Assembly: GCA_021730945.1 (NCBI GenBank)
Contig: JAKFYH010000002.1
Location: 62,001 to 126,000 of the forward strand
Direction: 5' to 3'
DNA: 64,000 nt
Source: Acidobacteriota bacterium
GTDB taxonomy: Bacteria; Acidobacteriota; Vicinamibacteria; Vicinamibacterales; UBA2999
In this document: one piece after another, positions 5,521 to 59,478 of the stretch
Layout of the letters: each line of letters starts with the position of its first letter
Position numbering within the stretch: position 1 is the stretch's first letter
Notes under the pieces: model-generated
What the model was told of the DNA's origin: nothing
Databases searched by the model: none
The model's input: only the letters and a program-made list of their open reading frames with translations
Translations under genes and position numbers: made by a program

Positions 5521-7050
5521 TCAGCGGCCGTACGAGGTCTCGGTATCGAGTACCTGAAGCGTGCGCTCGAACAGCGCATCGGCCTCGCCGGCATCGTTGG
5601 CAATCGCCGTGACGCCGAGCTTGCCGAACTCCGAGACCGCGCCAATCAGGTGGAACAGTACGCCGCTCTCGGTGCGCTGGCTGTAATGAAGCCGGTTCTC
5701 GGTGACGATGTCGATCAGGTCCTCGGGGACGAGCGAGCGATAGCGTTCTGAGCGCAGGTTGTCGGTCGCCCGATAGAACTTGGGGCGGCCGCCGATCGAC
5801 ATGAATCGACCGGTCGCCAGATCGAGCTGCCCGCCGGTCAGGAAGCTCAGGGCCAGGAACGGATGCGTCGTGCCGAGCAGCCGAAGATTAATCTCCAGTG
5901 CCGTTAACTCCCACGGGTCGCCCGGGTGCCGGCGGAAGGCGAGGAAGTCGACACCGAACCGGGACACCACGCCTTTGCCGGCCAGCACCGCGCCAACCCG
6001 CTCCGCCATCGCCGACATCTGCAGGCGGTAGTCGTCGTGGGCCGGGAAGCGACAGCCAAGGTAGGTCTGCCCGTGCGGTCCACCCAGGATCTGGTCGTGC
6101 GTGGAGATGGGCAGCACCTCGCCGCGCGGGCTGGTCCGCAACTGCACCGACGGCGAGTGTTTTTCGGGCGCCTCGATGAACTCTTCGACCACCCCACCCA
6201 TGCGTTGCATCTCGCCCAGATAGGAGGAGGCGGTGTCGGCCTCTGTGGGCAGCGCCATGGCCGCCAGCGCCGCCGCGACGTCGCCATTGGCTGACGGCGG
6301 GTAGGTCACGACGGCGTTGCCTTCGCCAGAAAAACTTTCGTTCAGCTTGACCACGGCTCGCCGAATCCCCGGCCGGCTGCGCCGCAGTTCGACCAGGGCG
6401 CGGGTCAGGTCGGCTTCGTCGTGCAGGTCTTCGAATCCCGCGGGCAGCGGCACGCCCGCTTCCCGGAACACGTGCCGGCTTCCCGACTTGGTGCCGTAGT
6501 GCCGCAGGTCCGGGTCAAGCCCATTGAGCGGCACATCAAGCAGCACCGCCAGCTTGCGCTCAAGGGGGGTCGAGTTGAACACCGTCAGGTAGGCCCGCTT
6601 CCGGTCGGGAATCGCTCTGCGGATGCGCTCCACCAGGCGTGGCCGCTCAATGATCTTCTGTGTCAACGGCCGCGGCGAGGCGTCGTGACAGCAGAGCATG
6701 GTGAGCCGGGCGCGGGCGTGCGATGCCGGCACGCCGGCCAGCAGGTTGAGGTAATAGTCGAGGATGATCGGATGCACCGGTTGCGATGTGACATAGACCA
6801 CGTGCGCCCGCGGATTGCGCAGCCGGATCAACAGGAACAACAAGCGTTCTTCGTAGTACGCCGCGCCGGCCAGCTTGCCCAATTCGGTCTGGTCCAGCGT
6901 CAGCGACGGCACGACCACCGAGGTGCAGTGACTGTCGTCGTCGGTGGTCAGCGCATCCCAGACCTCGGTGAGGCGCGGCTTGAGGGCGCAAAACGCCTCG
7001 AGTTCCTGCTCAAGCGTGAGGTCGCCGGCAAAGGGCGGCTTGGGAATCAT
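5521..7050 (-). CDS. PGM1-like ATP-grasp peptide ligase
   Basis: A 509-residue protein. The N-terminal half contains VVVPSLTLDQTELGKLAGAA, YEERLLFLLIRLRNP, VVYVTSQPVHPIILDYYLNL and LLDVPLNGLDPDL, the pre-ATP-grasp pattern I associate with proteins related to the pheganomycin peptide ligase PGM1. The ATP-grasp domain follows: GTKSGSRHVFREAGVPLPAG, AVVKLNESFSGEGNAVV, GVVEEFIEA and VDFLAF with ALEINLRLLGTTHPF. PGM1 joins amino acids to peptides; here the substrate is unknown. It is 5 nt downstream of the GATase-like gene, so the pair is an operon and the products probably act together. Confidence 0.78.
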   Translation of the reverse strand: MIPKPPFAGDLTLEQELEAFCALKPRLTEVWDALTTDDDSHCTSVVVPSLTLDQTELGKLAGAAYYEERLLFLLIRLRNPRAHVVYVTSQPVHPIILDYYLNLLAGVPASHARARLTMLCCHDASPRPLTQKIIERPRLVERIRRAIPDRKRAYLTVFNSTPLERKLAVLLDVPLNGLDPDLRHYGTKSGSRHVFREAGVPLPAGFEDLHDEADLTRALVELRRSRPGIRRAVVKLNESFSGEGNAVVTYPPSANGDVAAALAAMALPTEADTASSYLGEMQRMGGVVEEFIEAPEKHSPSVQLRTSPRGEVLPISTHDQILGGPHGQTYLGCRFPAHDDYRLQMSAMAERVGAVLAGKGVVSRFGVDFLAFRRHPGDPWELTALEINLRLLGTTHPFLALSFLTGGQLDLATGRFMSIGGRPKFYRATDNLRSERYRSLVPEDLIDIVTENRLHYSQRTESGVLFHLIGAVSEFGKLGVTAIANDAGEADALFERTLQVLDTETSYGR

Positions 7051-42796: not shown

Positions 42797-43282
42797 TTAG
42801 TGCTTGGCGAACACGTACTTCTTGCCGTCCTTCGTGAACGCGATCACGTTGTACGGTTCCTTCATGCCGCCCTGCTCCATGCCGGGCGATCCCATCGGCA
42901 TGCCCGGCGCCGAGAGGCCCGCGATCGCCGGCTTCTCTTTGAGCAGGCGCTTGATGTCGTCGGCCGGGACGTGGCCCTCGATGACATAGCCGCCCACCTT
43001 CGCGGTGTGGCACGACGAGAGCTCGTCGGTGACCCCGGCCTGCATGCCGACGGCCCGCAGTTGCATGTCGCTCACGTTGTTGGCTTCCACCTGGAAGCCT
43101 TGCGCCTGGAGATGTTGCATCCAGGCGCTGCAGCACCCTCAAGTGGGGGACTTGTAGACCACCACCGAACTCGTGGTGGCCGTCTTCGCCGTCGTGGCCG
43201 GCTTCTGCTGCGCCAGCAAGACGAGGCTGAAGCCCGCCACTACCAGCCCCGCAGCCGCCGCCGCGATGTATTTGATTCGCAT
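42797..43282 (-). CDS. DUF411 metal-binding protein, candidate selenoprotein (in-frame TGA as Sec48)
   Basis: The frame opens with a signal or anchor segment (MRIKYIAAAAAGLVVAGFSL), then VVVYKSPT. At 43141-43139 it meets TGA and continues GCCSAWMQHLQAQGF to a stop at 42797 (161 residues if TGA is read through). In DUF411 proteins, which occur near copper-resistance genes, this position is the first Cys of a conserved CGCC motif (pattern YKSPTCGCC). The rest is fully conserved (SCHTAKVGGYVIEGHVPADD, PGMPMGSPGM). A perfect stem-loop follows the TGA at SECIS distance. Alternatives are a nonsense mutation or a sequencing error, leaving a fragment that starts at 43120. Confidence 0.75.
43102..43128 (-). 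promoter_or_regulatory. Putative bacterial SECIS stem-loop
   Basis: Ten nucleotides after the in-frame TGA, GCGCCTGGA pairs perfectly with TCCAGGCGC around the loop TGCAACATC, with a G at loop position 2, about 21 nt from the TGA. An alternative fold pairs GATG with CATC to leave a 3 nt loop and a 2 nt bulge. Bacterial SECIS elements lie just downstream of UGA, with an apical loop G 16-37 nt away, so the geometry fits. Confidence 0.65.
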
Positions 43283-43348
43283 CTTCAAATGCTACTCCAT
43301 TCACTTGAGAACCTGTCCCGTACCGCCAGTACACCGTCGCCCGTCGGC

Positions 43349-43430
43349 GTCATCTGCGTCATCTGTGTCATCTGTGGCCCTATGTCATCTGTGGCCCTGT
43401 GTCATCTGTGGCCCTGCGTCATCTGTGGCC
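43349..43430. repeat. Nonamer/18-mer tandem repeat (GTCATCTGT family)
   Basis: Three copies of a 9 nt unit (GTCATCTGC/GTCATCTGT) pass into three copies of an 18 nt unit (GTCATCTGTGGCCCTRTG) between the YIP1 stop and the DUF411 start. The same family, in reverse orientation, occurs at 55421-55452. No promoter or gene was seen within it. Confidence 0.8.
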
Positions 43431-44003
43431 TCAGTTGACGGGCCTCGCCATCAGCAATCCCGCCCCGGCAATAATTCCGAACGTCACCAGCCAGGCCACC
43501 ACGCACACGACGACGGCACGGCCAAGGCTGCGGTAGTCGAGCGCCTGCTTGACGGCCAACACGGTGGCCGCCACCATCCAGATCGACGCCAGCGCGAACG
43601 CGAACGGCGCGGCCGACCGCATGGCGCCGAACGCCAAAAACACACCTGGTGCGGCGGCAAAGCCCATCGTCCGCAGCAGTTCCGCCGGCCGGCTGCTCGT
43701 TTGCGGTTCCGGCACCAGCCGCGTGCCGATCGCCGTGATCAGCAGCGCCCAGACCATCCAGGCGCCCAATGTCGCCGCCATGCCAATCGCGAACGTGACC
43801 AACGTCATCGACGAGCTGCCGACCGCCGCGACCCCTCCGGCGATGCACGCCAGCAGCACGACGGCTGCAGCCTGGCCACCGGCACCTCGATCGGCTTCGA
43901 CGTCTTCGAACGTCACGGGGTCGAGGACGAGGACACCCATGACGCGCCTGATAAATCCCGTGAGCGATCCGCCGGCGCGCGACGTTGTTGCCACCATGTC
44001 CAT
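43431..44003 (-). CDS. YIP1-family membrane protein
   Basis: A 190-residue protein with five hydrophobic helices. The N-terminal signature SLTGFIRRVMGVLVLDPVTF followed by EDVEADRGAGGQ is typical of bacterial YIP1 proteins. Function is unknown. The predicted sigma-54-like start site (about 43999) would lie between the first ATG (44003) and the second (43997), so the second may be used. It is the first gene of the operon that includes the candidate selenoprotein. Confidence 0.8.
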   Translation of the reverse strand: MDMVATTSRAGGSLTGFIRRVMGVLVLDPVTFEDVEADRGAGGQAAAVVLLACIAGGVAAVGSSSMTLVTFAIGMAATLGAWMVWALLITAIGTRLVPEPQTSSRPAELLRTMGFAAAPGVFLAFGAMRSAAPFAFALASIWMVAATVLAVKQALDYRSLGRAVVVCVVAWLVTFGIIAGAGLLMARPVN

Positions 44004-44097: not shown

Positions 44098-44160
44098 TCC
44101 TCAGTGTGCCGCCCTGGATCAGGCGTTCAGAGCGGGACTACAATTTGCAGGGTTCTGGTC

Positions 44161-45606
44161 ATGCCAAGGCGTCTTCTGCTCATCCTGTGTCTGTTGGTCC
44201 CGATTACCGCCGCAGCGCAGTCGTTTGCGCCGGCCGGCTGGGACGCCGGCCTCCCGCTGGCCGAAGTGCCCGACCTCAATCCCGACCCGACGATCGTCGA
44301 GGTGAACCTCACGGCCAAGCTGGCCGACGTCGAAGTGTCGCCCGGCAAGCGCGTGCACGCGTGGACCTACAACGGCGCCATTCCCGGGCCGCTCATCAAG
44401 ACCCGTGTCGGCGACCGGCTGATCGTGCACTTCAAGAATGAATTGAAGGAACCCTCCACCGTGCATTGGCACGGGATCCGCCTGCCGATCGAGATGGACG
44501 GCGTGCCCGGGATCTCGCAACCGGAAGTTCAGCAGGGCGAGTCGTTCACCTACGACTTCATCGTCCGCGATGCCGGTCTCTACTGGTATCACCCGCACGT
44601 GATGTCGGCGGCCCAGGTGGGCTTTGGCCTGTACGGCGGGCTGCTGGTGGAAGACCCGAACGACGGCGTGGGGGTGGCCGACCAGGTCACGCTCGTGCTG
44701 AGCGACATCGGCTTCGACAACAAGGGCGTGCTCGAGCCCGCCGACAGCGGCGGCTCGGCGGGCATGGTGTTCGGGCGCGAGGGCGACTACGTGCTGGTGA
44801 ACGGACGCACCGATCCGGTGCTGCGCGCCCGTCCCGGCGCGCCGCAGCGCTGGCGCATCGCCAACATGGCCAAGAGCCGCTTCTTCTACCTCGACCTCGA
44901 AGGCCAGCCGTTCACGGTGATTGGCGCCGACGGCGGGTTGCAGGAGTACTCCGTCACGACCGACATCCTGCTGGTCACGCCCGGCGAGCGCGTCGATGTG
45001 ATCGTTGCGCCGAAGGGCAAGGCCGGCACGCCGCTGACGTTGCGCGCCATGCTTTACAACCGCGGTTACGGTAGCGTCCAGTACCGCGCCGTCGAAGACA
45101 TCATGACCGTGGAGTTCACCGACCAGCCGCCGATTACCGCGGCGCCGGTCAAGGTCAGCCGGCCGCTGCCCGTTCCCACCGCCGAGGGGGCGACACCGGT
45201 GGACGTGGTACTGACGTTGCCGCCGATGGAGAACAGCAAGTCGGAGTTCCGGGTCAACGGCGTGCCGTTCTGGAAGGCGAAACCATTCCTGGCCAAGCTG
45301 GGCGAGACGCAACTGTGGATCGTCAATAACGAGAGCGAATGGGACCATCCGTTTCACCTGCACGGGTTCTTCTTCCAGGTGATCGACGACAAGGGCCAGC
45401 CGGTGCGGCCCCTGGCGTGGAAGGACACGGTCAACGTGCCAATGAAGACGACGGTCCGGCTGCTGGTGACGTTTGACGAGCGGCCCGGCGAGTGGATGTT
45501 CCATTGCCACATCCTCGATCACGCCGATGGCGGACTGATGGGGACCGTGCTGGTGGGACCGGTCGCTCCGACCGGGCACGTGCATCCCAAGCCGCCGCCG
45601 CGCTAG
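44161..45606 (+). CDS. Periplasmic multicopper oxidase (three-domain)
   Basis: A 481-residue protein with a Sec signal peptide (MPRRLLLILCLLVPITAAAQ). The copper motifs are complete: HWHGIRLP, WYHPHV, HPFHLHGFFFQV and FHCHILDHADGGLMG. It resembles CueO/laccase-type oxidases that oxidise Cu(I) or organic substrates with O2. It is not a NirK nitrite reductase. Start chosen at the signal peptide; the long upstream reading frame is a shadow of the YIP1 gene. Palindrome F lies upstream. Confidence 0.9.
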   Translation: MPRRLLLILCLLVPITAAAQSFAPAGWDAGLPLAEVPDLNPDPTIVEVNLTAKLADVEVSPGKRVHAWTYNGAIPGPLIKTRVGDRLIVHFKNELKEPSTVHWHGIRLPIEMDGVPGISQPEVQQGESFTYDFIVRDAGLYWYHPHVMSAAQVGFGLYGGLLVEDPNDGVGVADQVTLVLSDIGFDNKGVLEPADSGGSAGMVFGREGDYVLVNGRTDPVLRARPGAPQRWRIANMAKSRFFYLDLEGQPFTVIGADGGLQEYSVTTDILLVTPGERVDVIVAPKGKAGTPLTLRAMLYNRGYGSVQYRAVEDIMTVEFTDQPPITAAPVKVSRPLPVPTAEGATPVDVVLTLPPMENSKSEFRVNGVPFWKAKPFLAKLGETQLWIVNNESEWDHPFHLHGFFFQVIDDKGQPVRPLAWKDTVNVPMKTTVRLLVTFDERPGEWMFHCHILDHADGGLMGTVLVGPVAPTGHVHPKPPPR

Positions 45607-52536: not shown

Positions 52537-52579
52537 AACAGTCGTGCATGGGCGATGACCCCGAAAGTGGCGCCAAAGC

Positions 52580-52612
52580 GGGAAATCTTTCGCGCAAACC
52601 GAAAGATTCCCC
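52580..52612. promoter_or_regulatory. Inverted repeat G (GGGAAATCTTTCG / CGAAAGATTCCCC)
   Basis: Two 12-13 nt arms with a single bulged A are separated by 7 nt in the divergent gap between the conduit operon and the P-type ATPase gene. The arms contain GGGAAA/ATTCCCC like repeats E and F. GGGAAATCTTTCGCGC also resembles GGGAAATTTCGCGC near 62190 (minus strand). Confidence 0.6.
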
Positions 52613-52639
52613 AGTGCGCCGACCCGTCCTGACGAGAGC

Positions 52640-54496
52640 ATGAACCTGAGTCCTAACGCCCTGCTGCGCGACACCACCGGCCTGGCCCTGTTCTGCCTGG
52701 CCGCTATCGCCGTCCACCTGGCCATGAAGTTCGGTTTCCACGCCAGCACTGCGAGCGCCAACCTGCCATTGCTCGCTGCGATCCTGCTGGGCGGCGCACC
52801 GCTCGTCTACGACCTTGCCCGCAAGGCGCTTCGCCGCGAGTTTGGTTCCGATCTGCTCGGCGGCATCTCGATCGTCACCTCGCTCTGGTTGGGCGAGTAC
52901 CTCGCCGGGTCGATCATCGTGCTCATGCTGTCGGGCGGGGCGGCGCTCGAAAGCTACGCCCTGCGCAGTGCCTCGTCCGTGCTCGACGCGCTGGCTCGCC
53001 GCGTCCCCCTCGTTGCCCACCGTCGTGTGGCGGCCACCACCGAGGACATCGTGCTGGCCGAGGTGGAGGTTGGCGACATCCTGGTCATCCATCCACACGA
53101 GATCTGTCCGGTCGACGGCGAGGTCCTCGAAGGTCACGGCGTGATGGACGAGTCGTACCTCACCGGTGAACCGTTCGAGATCACGAAGACCCGCGGTTCG
53201 CAGGTGATCTCCGGCGCGATCAACGGTGAAGCGGTGCTGGTGATCCGCACGACCCGTCGTGCCGCCGACTCGCGCTATGCCCGCATCATGGACGTGATGC
53301 GCGACTCCGAGGCGACGCGGCCGCGCCTGCGCCGCCTGGGCGACCGCCTCGGCGCCGTCTACACGCCGGTGGCGCTGGCCGTGGCGCTGGCCGCCTGGGC
53401 GGCCTCGGGTGACGCGACCCGCTTTCTCGCCGTGCTCGTGATTGCCACGCCGTGTCCCCTGCTGATCGCCATTCCGGTCGCCATCGTCGGGTCGATCTCT
53501 CTCTGTGCGCGCCGCGCCATCATCGTGAAGAGTCCGGCGGTGCTCGAGCAGATTGCCACCTGCCGCACGGCGATCTTCGACAAGACCGGGACCCTGACCT
53601 TCGGCGAGCCTGCGCTGACCGAGATGGTCGTGGCCGATGGATTCAACCGCGCCGATGTCCTCTCTGCCGCCGCCAGCCTGGAACGCTATTCGAAGCATCC
53701 GCTCGCCCGCGCCGTGCTGGCGACCGCCGCCGCCGAACACGTGACCCTGGCCGAGGCGTCGATGGTGACCGAACCGCCCGGTGAAGGTCTGCGCGGCACC
53801 GTGCAGGGCCGGCAGATCGCGGTCACCAGCCGCAAGAAGGTGCTGGCGATCGATCGATTGGCCACCGGGTTTCCACCGGTCACCGGCGGCCTTGAGTGCG
53901 TGGTCGCGATCGATCAGCGGTATGCCGCCACGCTGCAGTTTCGCGATCAACCTCGTCCCGACAGTCGATCGTTCGTGCAACACCTGGGTCCGAAGCACCA
54001 GTTTCGCCGGACCATGATCGTGTCGGGCGACCGGGAGTCCGAGGTTCGCTATCTCGCCGACAAGGTCGGCGTGACCGAAGTGCACGCCGGCCAGAGCCCC
54101 GAACAGAAGCTGGCGCTGGTTCGCGCCGAAACCGCGCTGGCCCCAACGCTCTACGTCGGCGACGGCATCAATGACGCGCCGGCGATGATGGCGGCCACGG
54201 TCGGGATGGCGATCGGCGAACACAGCGACGTCACCGCCGAGGCGGCCGGGGTGATCGCGCTGGAGAACACGCTCAAGAAGGTGGATGAGTTCATTCATAT
54301 CGCGCGGCGCATGCGGCGCATTGCGCTGCAGAGCGCCGTCGGCGGCATGGCGCTCAGCCTGGCCGGCATGGGCTTCGCCGCCGCGGGCTATCTCACGCCC
54401 GTCAACGGCGCCCTGTTGCAGGAAGCGATCGACATCGTCGCGGTGCTCAACGCGCTGCGGGCGGCGTTTCCTCCCGCGACGATGCACGATTTCTGA
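52640..54496 (+). CDS. P1B-type heavy-metal P-type ATPase with CPL motif
   Basis: A 618-residue P-type ATPase without an N-terminal metal-binding domain. Landmarks are the actuator motif YLTGEP, the membrane metal site [16 protein letters not shown], the phosphorylation site [10 protein letters not shown], the P1B-specific [10 protein letters not shown], and GDGINDAP. The intramembrane motif is CPL rather than CPC, CPH or SPC, so metal specificity cannot be assigned to a standard subgroup. It is divergent from the cytochrome conduit operon. Confidence 0.9.
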
Positions 54497-57216: not shown

Positions 57217-58558
57217 ACTTCTCGATGCGATAGCGGATTTGGTCGCGGTTGAGGCCGAGCAGGGTCGCCGCCTTGGTCTGGTTCCAGCCGCTGCGCTCGA
57301 GCGCCTGCAGCACCAGGGCGCGCTCCAGTTCCTCGAGGTTGATGCCCCCGGCCGGCAGGCCCAGGCCGGTCGACAGCTCGGCGTCGGATGCGGTGAGCAT
57401 CGAGAAGTGACTCTCGCTCAACTGATCGTCGTCGGTCAGCAGCATTGCCCGTTCGACGGCGTTGCGTAGTTCGCGGACGTTGCCGGGCCAGGCGTAGCCC
57501 TGCAGCGCCTTGAGCGCGCCGGCTGACAGTCCCTGGATTTTCTTGCGGAACTCGAGGTTGAAGATGTCGATGTAGTGGCGCAGCAGCCGCGGCACATCAT
57601 CCCGCCGATCGCGCAGTGGCGGCAGCGGCACCGCCATCACGTTGAGGCGATAGAAGAGGTCCTCGCGGAAACGGCCTTTCTTGACCTCGTCCTGCAGCGA
57701 CCGGTTGGTCGCGGCAATCACCCGGACGTCGACCTTGATGTCGGCGGCGCCGCCGACCCGCTTGAAGGATTTCTCTTCGAGAAACCGCAGCAGCTTGGCT
57801 TGCAGCAACGGCACCATCTCGCCGATCTCGTCGAGGAACACCGTGCCGCCATCGGCCGACTCGAGCAGGCCGCGCTTCATGCGGTCGGCGCCGGTGAACG
57901 CCCCGCGCTCGTGGCCGAACAGCTCGCTTTCGAGCAGCGTCTCCGGCAGGGCCGAGCAGGTGATGTTCATGAACGGCTTGGCCGCCCGGCTGCTGCTGTA
58001 GTGGATCACCTTGGCGGCCAGGTCCTTGCCGGTGCCGCTTTCGCCGGTCAGCAGGACCGTGGTCGCCGGGCTGACGCCAATCTTCTGCAGCATCGCGCGC
58101 ACCGCCACGATCGGGGCGCTCTCGCCGACGATGCTCTCGGGACCGTAGGGCTGGGCCTGGCGCGCCCGCAGTGTGCGAACCTCGCGGCGCAAGTGCGTGG
58201 TTTCGAGCGCCTTCTCGACCAGCAGCACGACCTCATCGAGGTCAAACGGCTTGTTCGCGTAGTGGAAGGCGCCGTTCTTCATGGCCTCGACCGCGGTCTG
58301 CACGCCGGTCTGGCCGGTCAGCATGATCACCAGCGTGTCGGGATCCGACTCCTTGATTTGCTTGAGCACCGAGAGGCCGCTGGCATCGGGCAGGCCGATG
58401 TCGAGCAAGACCAGGTCGACGCCTTCGCGCTGCAGGGACAGCGCGTCAGCGGCGGTGCCCGCCTCAAGGATCCGATAGCCCTCGTCCTTCAACCTGCTGG
58501 TGAGCGACCATCGGATTAGTTGTTCGTCGTCGACGATCAGAATCGTGGCGTTCGGCAT
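57188..58558 (-). CDS. NtrC-type sigma-54-dependent response regulator
   Basis: A 456-residue regulator. The receiver (DDEQLIRWSL, phospho-Asp in VDLVLLDIGLPDASG) is followed by an AAA+ sigma-54 interaction domain with Walker A GESGTGKD, the GAFTGA loop (HERGAFTGADR), Walker B GTVFLDEIGEM and an arginine finger region. A Fis-type helix-turn-helix (NQTKAATLLGLNRDQIRYRI) follows. It activates sigma-54 promoters. Sigma-54-like elements with shared inverted repeats in this window are likely targets (inference). Its start overlaps the stop of a receiver gene (TGATG). Confidence 0.94.
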   Translation of the reverse strand: MPNATILIVDDEQLIRWSLTSRLKDEGYRILEAGTAADALSLQREGVDLVLLDIGLPDASGLSVLKQIKESDPDTLVIMLTGQTGVQTAVEAMKNGAFHYANKPFDLDEVVLLVEKALETTHLRREVRTLRARQAQPYGPESIVGESAPIVAVRAMLQKIGVSPATTVLLTGESGTGKDLAAKVIHYSSSRAAKPFMNITCSALPETLLESELFGHERGAFTGADRMKRGLLESADGGTVFLDEIGEMVPLLQAKLLRFLEEKSFKRVGGAADIKVDVRVIAATNRSLQDEVKKGRFREDLFYRLNVMAVPLPPLRDRRDDVPRLLRHYIDIFNLEFRKKIQGLSAGALKALQGYAWPGNVRELRNAVERAMLLTDDDQLSESHFSMLTASDAELSTGLGLPAGGINLEELERALVLQALERSGWNQTKAATLLGLNRDQIRYRIEKFKLEKAAPR

Positions 58559-58971
58559 CAGGCGATCCCGGTGGCCGAGAACAGGCGGCCCAGTTCTTCG
58601 AGGGCAAACGGCTTGTCGAGCACGGCCTGTGCGCCGAGGTCGAGGGCCTCGGCCTTGATTTCGGCGGTGCCAAACGCGGTCATCAAGACCACGAATGCCA
58701 AGGGCAACTGCTGGCGGATCTGGCGCAGCAGCGACAAGTCACTGACGTCCGGCAGCCGCAAATCGAGGACCACGATATCGAAAGCTTGTGGGGTTCGCGA
58801 CACAAGGTCCAACGCGCCGGCGCCGTCGGCCGCCTGGTCGACGGCCATGTGGAGCGCGGCCAGCGTTTCGGCCACCGACCAACGGATCAGCGGCTCGTCG
58901 TCCACCACGAGTGCGCGAAGGGGAGCGGCGCGGGCCGGGCGCTCCTGGGCCGTAGGCGGACTGTTGATCAT
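58558..58971 (-). CDS. Stand-alone response-regulator receiver
   Basis: A 137-residue single-domain receiver. Acidic pocket DDEPLIRWSVAETL, phospho-Asp in FDIVVLDLRLPDVSDL, switch Thr in LMTAFGT and Lys in LDKPFALEEL. The DDEPLIRWS block is shared with the NtrC receiver (DDEQLIRWS) and with the next receiver, so the three look like products of duplication. It has no output domain and may act in a phosphorelay or as a phosphate sink. It is translationally coupled to the NtrC gene. Confidence 0.88.
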   Translation of the reverse strand: MINSPPTAQERPARAAPLRALVVDDEPLIRWSVAETLAALHMAVDQAADGAGALDLVSRTPQAFDIVVLDLRLPDVSDLSLLRQIRQQLPLAFVVLMTAFGTAEIKAEALDLGAQAVLDKPFALEELGRLFSATGIA

Positions 58972-58989
58972 CTCAGGCAGGAAATCAGG

Positions 58990-59478
58990 TCAGCGCCCAG
59001 TATGTCCCAGCGAGTCATTGACGACAAGACGGCTCAGCTCCCCGAGCTCGAACGGCTTTGTGAGGACACCGCGAACGCCGAGCTTGCGCGCCTCGGCCAT
59101 GATCTCCGGCGTCCCGAAGGCGGTCATCAACACGACCGGTGTCTCCGGCACCAACTGGCGGATGGTGGCCAGCAGGGAGAGGTCGTTCATGTCGGGTAAT
59201 CGCAGATCGAGCACGATCACGTCGAAGGGCAAAGCGGCCGAGGTGAGGGCTTGCAGCGCCGACGCCGCACAATCGGCCTGCTCGACGTCCAGGCCAAGCT
59301 CGGCAAGGGTTTCGGTCACCGACCACCGGATGAGCGGTTCGTCGTCGACGACCAGCACGTGGAGTGGGACTTTTTTCACGGCGGGCCTCGAAATCTCTCG
59401 CGCCAAGGCGACCGGCCATTCGAACATTGGTGGCGAAAGCTGCTCGATCGCCGCCGCGAACGTGGACATGCCACCCAT
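58990..59478 (-). CDS. Stand-alone response-regulator receiver
   Basis: A 162-residue receiver with a 40-residue N-terminal extension (MGGMSTFAAAIEQLSPP). Pocket DDEPLIRWSVTETL, phospho-Asp in FDVIVLDLRLPDMNDL, switch Thr in LMTAFGT and Lys in VLTKPFELGELS. It is the first gene of the receiver-receiver-NtrC run and divergent from the Usp gene. High similarity to its neighbour suggests a recent tandem duplication. Confidence 0.88.
   Translation of the reverse strand: MGGMSTFAAAIEQLSPPMFEWPVALAREISRPAVKKVPLHVLVVDDEPLIRWSVTETLAELGLDVEQADCAASALQALTSAALPFDVIVLDLRLPDMNDLSLLATIRQLVPETPVVLMTAFGTPEIMAEARKLGVRGVLTKPFELGELSRLVVNDSLGHTGR

Follow-up and report, generated by a model that had tools for sequence, protein, structure and literature searches.

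Many Acidobacteriota appear to encode selenocysteine at the first copper-binding position of the DUF411 protein CopG

The window studied here, a stretch of 64,000 nucleotides from an Acidobacteriota genome, carries a DUF411 gene in which codon 48 is TGA, at the place where the family has the first cysteine of YKSPTCGCC. The locus thus raises the question of whether this TGA ends a dead or shortened gene or is translated and, if selenocysteine (Sec) is inserted, what the Sec would do in a family linked to copper. A first-pass annotation made from the letters alone had proposed a new selenoprotein, with Sec in place of the first Cys of CGCC. Its description of the gene was borne out: the TGA lies in frame at 43139-43141 on the minus strand, the translation ahead of it has a hydrophobic, signal-like N-terminus as judged by eye, and 113 conserved codons follow before the TAA (Table 1). 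The Pfam DUF411 profile gave 97.5 bits for this gene (cut-off 27), and the closest solved structure was the DUF411 protein 6WIS/6WJE (E 1.5e-29). An AlphaFold model of the protein computed without an alignment was poor (pLDDT 49). The single DUF411 copy found in the window's genome is the TGA form, so that the Sec form is no backup to another copy.

Table 1. Features at the DUF411 locus, in window coordinates
Feature	Position	Strand	Remark
DUF411 / CopG-type gene	42797..43282	minus	161 codons plus TAA; TGA at codon 48, very probably read as selenocysteine
In-frame TGA (putative Sec-48), first position of CxCC	43139..43141	minus	aligned homologues have TGA or Cys codons
Hydrophobic, signal-like N-terminus plus linker, residues 1-36	43175..43282	minus	translation judged by eye
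Hairpin 1, 9 bp and 9-nt loop, candidate SECIS stem	43102..43128	minus	folding; 10 nt after TGA
Hairpin 2, 7-bp stem and AGGU loop, completing the RNA element	43082..43099	minus	folding; 99% of cells paired
Small membrane-like ORF, no Pfam match	43431..44003	minus	between multicopper oxidase and DUF411; conserved in genus
Multicopper oxidase gene, CueO/CopA-like	44149..45606	plus	neighbour of DUF411

TGA and Cys forms of DUF411 in other genomes

A search for other DUF411 homologues with TGA at this column yielded, after identical copies were dropped, 48 distinct TGA genes and 113 distinct Cys genes (86 TGC, 27 TGT). In these 161 genes, the column of the first CxCC cysteine holds nothing but TGA or TGC/TGT, and the aligned region of the 48 TGA genes contains no TAA, no TAG and no second TGA. 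Within the same class, DUF411 was present in 91 of 193 genomes, and in 42 of these the aligned region is interrupted by a single stop, always TGA. Seven other genomes of the window's genus have a DUF411 match; six carry the TGA form, whereas G111 has Cys. Five TGA genomes of other classes came from 396 sampled genomes of the phylum. Altogether, 47 of the 48 TGA genes come from Acidobacteriota, although the taxon names in this set are partly unreliable (metagenome bins): L017, titled Acidimicrobiia, has the same gene as found in the window's genus. The remaining gene, contributed by a scan of species genomes, belongs to a deltaproteobacterial MAG (L082) whose genome has tRNA-Sec; among 395 genomes of its phylum, no close TGA homologue besides that gene was found. 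One TGA gene (L137 in G039, near position 6098) has the altered motif GPG-U-PCC instead of SPT-U-GCC. Judging from this comparison of genes, many Acidobacteriota appear to encode Sec at the first copper-binding position of CopG (DUF411).

The codons after the TGA are under purifying selection. With the RNA element described below excluded, dN/dS between the window's gene and 12 TGA relatives was 0.08-0.37, and C50, C51, C91, H92, H104, M128 and M135 are invariant in 48/48 TGA genes, in keeping with the family conservation that had been noted for this part of the gene.

The RNA element after the TGA

The stem that the first-pass annotation had offered as a bacterial SECIS is present in every detail: hairpin 1 (UGCAACAUC) has nine perfect pairs, a 9-nt loop and G at loop position 2, ten nucleotides after the TGA. 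As an argument for Sec it carried less than had been claimed. The hairpin is real, but alone it was unremarkable in dinucleotide shuffles (z -1.69; 13 of 200 shuffles were equally good), and the loop G is not conserved, as near relatives have UU, UC or other bases at loop position 2. Just downstream lies hairpin 2, which the first-pass annotation had not mentioned; it has the sequence GGCUUCC-AGGU-GGAAGCC, and for both hairpins together the shuffle gave z -3.0, with 1 of 200 as good.

Codon conservation was measured in group A, which comprises 16 TGA genes from two related families. In this group, counting positions with a shared amino acid, codon identity reaches 94-95% over codons 10-19 after the TGA, and the frozen stretch extends beyond hairpin 1 into hairpin 2 (codons 15-19; codon identity 0.94). 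Later in the gene, codon identity in group A is mostly 38-61%, with two blocks at 72-84%; in Cys genes, codons 10-19 are 43-58% identical. Folding energy was compared with that of synonymous recodings. Hairpin 1 gave z -2.8 in the window's gene and averaged z -2.45 across group A, with p<0.05 in 81% of genes; the corresponding values for Acidobacteriota Cys genes were 0.08 and 3%. Hairpins 1 and 2 together form one RNA element with nearly frozen codons. Base-pair covariation showed few compensatory changes in this element, because its sequence hardly varies. In one TGA gene (L111 in G117), hairpin 1 is rebuilt and hairpin 2 is perfectly kept, which suggests that hairpin 2 may be the more important one for decoding.

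Like the E. coli fdhF-type SECIS, the element places a stem-loop directly after the UGA; unlike it, group A has two tandem hairpins. Hairpin 1 lies at the textbook distance from the UGA, but its loop G is not conserved. Hairpin 2 does have G at loop position 2, with its loop 46 nt from the UGA, past the usual 16-37. A second group of TGA genes (family f14) has a short stem capped by GGUC or GUU 17-21 nt from the UGA and a weak energy signal (mean z -0.85). The GGUC loop of some f14 genes and the AGGU loop of hairpin 2 may resemble the fdhF SECIS.

A bSECIS prediction, which had been suggested as a check, gave a mixed outcome. The generic model (loop of 3-9 nt, 4-16 bp, G in the first two loop positions, 16-37 nt from the UGA and energy at most -7.5; PMC13188914) fits the window's gene and 39 of the 48 TGA genes, but also 69 of the 113 Cys genes (61%). 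It was thus rejected as a means of telling TGA from Cys genes, since a model that fits Cys homologues so often is weak evidence on its own. The discriminating RNA evidence is the freezing of codons together with the folding energy against synonymous randomisation.

Sec machinery, its co-occurrence with the TGA form, and other readings of the codon

All four genes of the Sec pathway that had been named for a search, selA, selB, selC and selD, were found in the window's genome (4.7 Mb, 100% complete): SelB at 333 bits, above the curated cut-off, tRNA-Sec with anticodon UCA at 61.9 bits, SelA at 522 bits and SelD at 352 bits. The SelD gene itself has one in-frame TGA (MVSCAG-TGA-ASKLAAG), so that at least one further gene of this genome needs Sec decoding. 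A strong hairpin follows the UGA of this Sec-form SelD (L128, G000:C34:15882-16808). Several genes in the window end on TGA as an ordinary stop, and tRNA-Trp has the anticodon CCA, which indicates that there is no general change of the code and rules out a genome-wide reassignment of UGA. No selenoprotein was seen among the other TGA-split ORFs of the window that were examined. Two adjoining response-regulator ORFs in one frame (58558-59478, TGA at 58990) look like ordinary tandem genes.

Presence of the pathway was then compared between the two forms in genomes of the class. At a completeness of at least 93%, tRNA-Sec or SelA was found in 24/24 genomes with the TGA form; 8/31 genomes with the Cys form had neither, and these eight are all of the DUF411 genomes at this completeness without both. 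The one-sided p for this difference is 0.006, not corrected for relatedness and with a cut-off chosen after the data were seen, just above the completeness of G147; with all genomes, p is 0.08. In two TGA genomes, G147 (92% complete) and G162 (85%), neither tRNA-Sec nor SelA was found. Many Cys-form genomes also decode Sec, so that Sec is possible, not obligatory, for the DUF411 protein. A tree built with the trait column masked contains at least nine changes of Cys/Sec state, at least four of them forced by well-supported branches, in a direction that the tree does not resolve. This indicates that the Cys/Sec switch in DUF411 occurred several times.

Three readings of the TGA compete with Sec insertion. 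That it is a chance nonsense mutation or an assembly error in a Cys gene that is now dead could draw on the fact that gene finders end the ORF at the TGA and that the organism is known from draft contigs. However, chance is implausible, as had been argued beforehand, where 48 distinct genes share TGA at one column with no other stops, and the same 48 genes come from different assemblies, which makes a base error untenable. Decay or random stops in close relatives, which would have spoken for a dead gene, were not seen, the genus sharing the TGA in 6/7 genomes, and strong purifying selection acts downstream, so that the comparison already refutes this reading and we give it virtually no weight. 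It is scarcely more credible that the TGA is a true stop and that translation restarts at an ATG in hairpin 1 (43118-43120), which would leave a 107-residue product lacking CxCC. The longest listed ORF for the conserved part does run from this ATG, but ten of 16 close TGA genes have ATT, ATA, ATC or GTG there, and a restart would leave unexplained why the CGCC codons 49-51, upstream of it, are invariant. Equally improbable is a UGA read as Trp or Cys or by general readthrough, with the hairpins stimulating readthrough and SelB taking no part. The hairpin loops depart from the textbook SECIS loop, and readthrough elements, too, lie downstream of the stop; against this, the column holds Cys codons or TGA only, tRNA-Trp reads CCA, the full Sec pathway is present in the genomes, and among genomes at least 93% complete DUF411 is always the Cys form where the pathway was found lacking. 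We are thus highly confident, from these comparisons, that Sec would be inserted at codon 48 of the DUF411 gene.

Copper role of the Sec form and its place among selenoproteins

Two reports (PMC7558416, PMC8456105), both citing Hausrath et al. 2020, describe CopG as a periplasmic protein whose CxCC and two Met residues coordinate a tetranuclear Cu cluster. It is said to contribute to copper resistance under anaerobic conditions, with a proposed role in converting Cu(I) and Cu(II) into each other and handing copper on; its genes often lie near multicopper oxidase and copper export genes. The window's gene shares with CopG/CutG (DUF411, PF04214; 6WIS, 6WJE) the CxCC, SCHT and M-P-x-G-S-P-G-M motifs, the signal-like N-terminus and a multicopper oxidase neighbour as in cutFOG (PMC8456105), and it differs in that the first CxCC Cys is encoded by UGA, with an RNA element after it.

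The order multicopper oxidase, small membrane-like ORF, DUF411 recurs in four more genomes of the genus, and in the Cys-type relative L018 a multicopper oxidase lies divergent from DUF411, 67 bases away. For five TGA copies from beyond the genus (L149, L234, L229, L082, L191), no copper genes were seen alongside, so that the copper role rests on homology. An imperfect 17-base tandem repeat (CTGTGTCATCTGTGGCC, about four copies, 43348-43430) lies between DUF411 and the small membrane-like ORF, and a heavy-metal P-type ATPase, nearest to the cadmium/zinc type, is encoded about 9 kb from DUF411 (52559-54496).

Given the shared signature, the Sec form of DUF411 probably has a copper role like that of CopG. 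The main competitor is that Sec is inserted but that the protein works as a glutaredoxin-like thiol/selenol redox enzyme (UxCC) rather than mainly as a copper-cluster protein. Near the motif the protein weakly resembles glutaredoxin and the selenoprotein family Uxx-star, and known selenoproteins are mostly considered redox proteins (PMC13188914). However, the Sec forms keep all CopG signature Cys, His and Met, and a multicopper oxidase adjoins the gene in the window's genus; we consider a redox enzyme unlikely, if distinctly less so than the other readings of the TGA. With the thioredoxin-like-fold selenoproteins (Uxx-star, glutaredoxin, DsbG-like, Trx), DUF411 shares the in-frame UGA at the motif's N-terminal end, a SelB-type host and the existence of Cys homologues, and it differs from them in its UxCC motif and its extra Cys/His/Met ligands. 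Membership of the Uxx-star family was rejected, the NCBIfam model Uxx_star (NF041212) giving 20 bits against a cut-off of 66.

For a copper role like that of CopG, the following course can be proposed. SelA, SelD and tRNA-Sec would produce Sec-tRNA, and SelB, by homology, would act on the RNA element just after the UGA and bring Sec to codon 48. The presumably exported thioredoxin-fold protein would retain Cys50, Cys51 and Cys91 and the two Met ligands, with a selenolate replacing the first thiolate of CxCC. The likeliest task of Sec-CopG would be to hold a small periplasmic Cu(I) cluster, alternate between Cu(I) and Cu(II) and, with the multicopper oxidase encoded beside it, hand copper over. 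With a selenolate, the site may hold Cu(I) more tightly, be oxidised and reduced faster, or both. The fullest version of this proposal, in which Se directly ligates a polynuclear periplasmic Cu cluster, the switch was gained or lost several times in Acidobacteriota, and the window's group uses a non-standard, tandem two-hairpin SECIS, is put forward tentatively, as somewhat short of an even chance.

That DUF411 is absent from lists of prokaryotic selenoproteins, as the first-pass annotation had suggested for the classic ones, holds for the sources consulted. DUF411, CopG and PF04214 do not occur among the 119 prokaryotic selenoprotein families and subfamilies catalogued in May 2026 (PMC13188914); DUF411 is not mentioned in the 2022 selenoprotein list or in the deep-Sep paper, and no DUF411 selenoprotein model of NCBIfam (June 2026) matched above its cut-off. 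The open-access journal literature searched gave no paper that has DUF411 together with a selenoprotein, and a search joining CopG, selenocysteine and copper returned unrelated titles only. Sec does occur in copper-handling proteins of different families, namely the SO_0444 Cu/Zn efflux transporter (UxC) and a CopZ-family 2Fe-2S protein (PMC13188914). Sec-CopG would thus be a selenoprotein family missing from current catalogues, with a prior mention elsewhere being possible.

If this is correct, the prokaryotic selenoproteome would gain one more family, and Sec would take the place of a copper ligand in a protein for which the Cu-cluster structure of the Cys form is already solved. By comparing matched Sec/Cys pairs, one could then measure directly how selenium alters Cu(I) binding and redox. 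Gene finders that take TGA as a stop truncate every Sec-type DUF411 gene, and because the gene is cut short, its copper function has likely been overlooked in many Acidobacteriota genomes. Repeated Sec/Cys switches within one phylum would moreover amount to a natural experiment on the retention or loss of selenocysteine.
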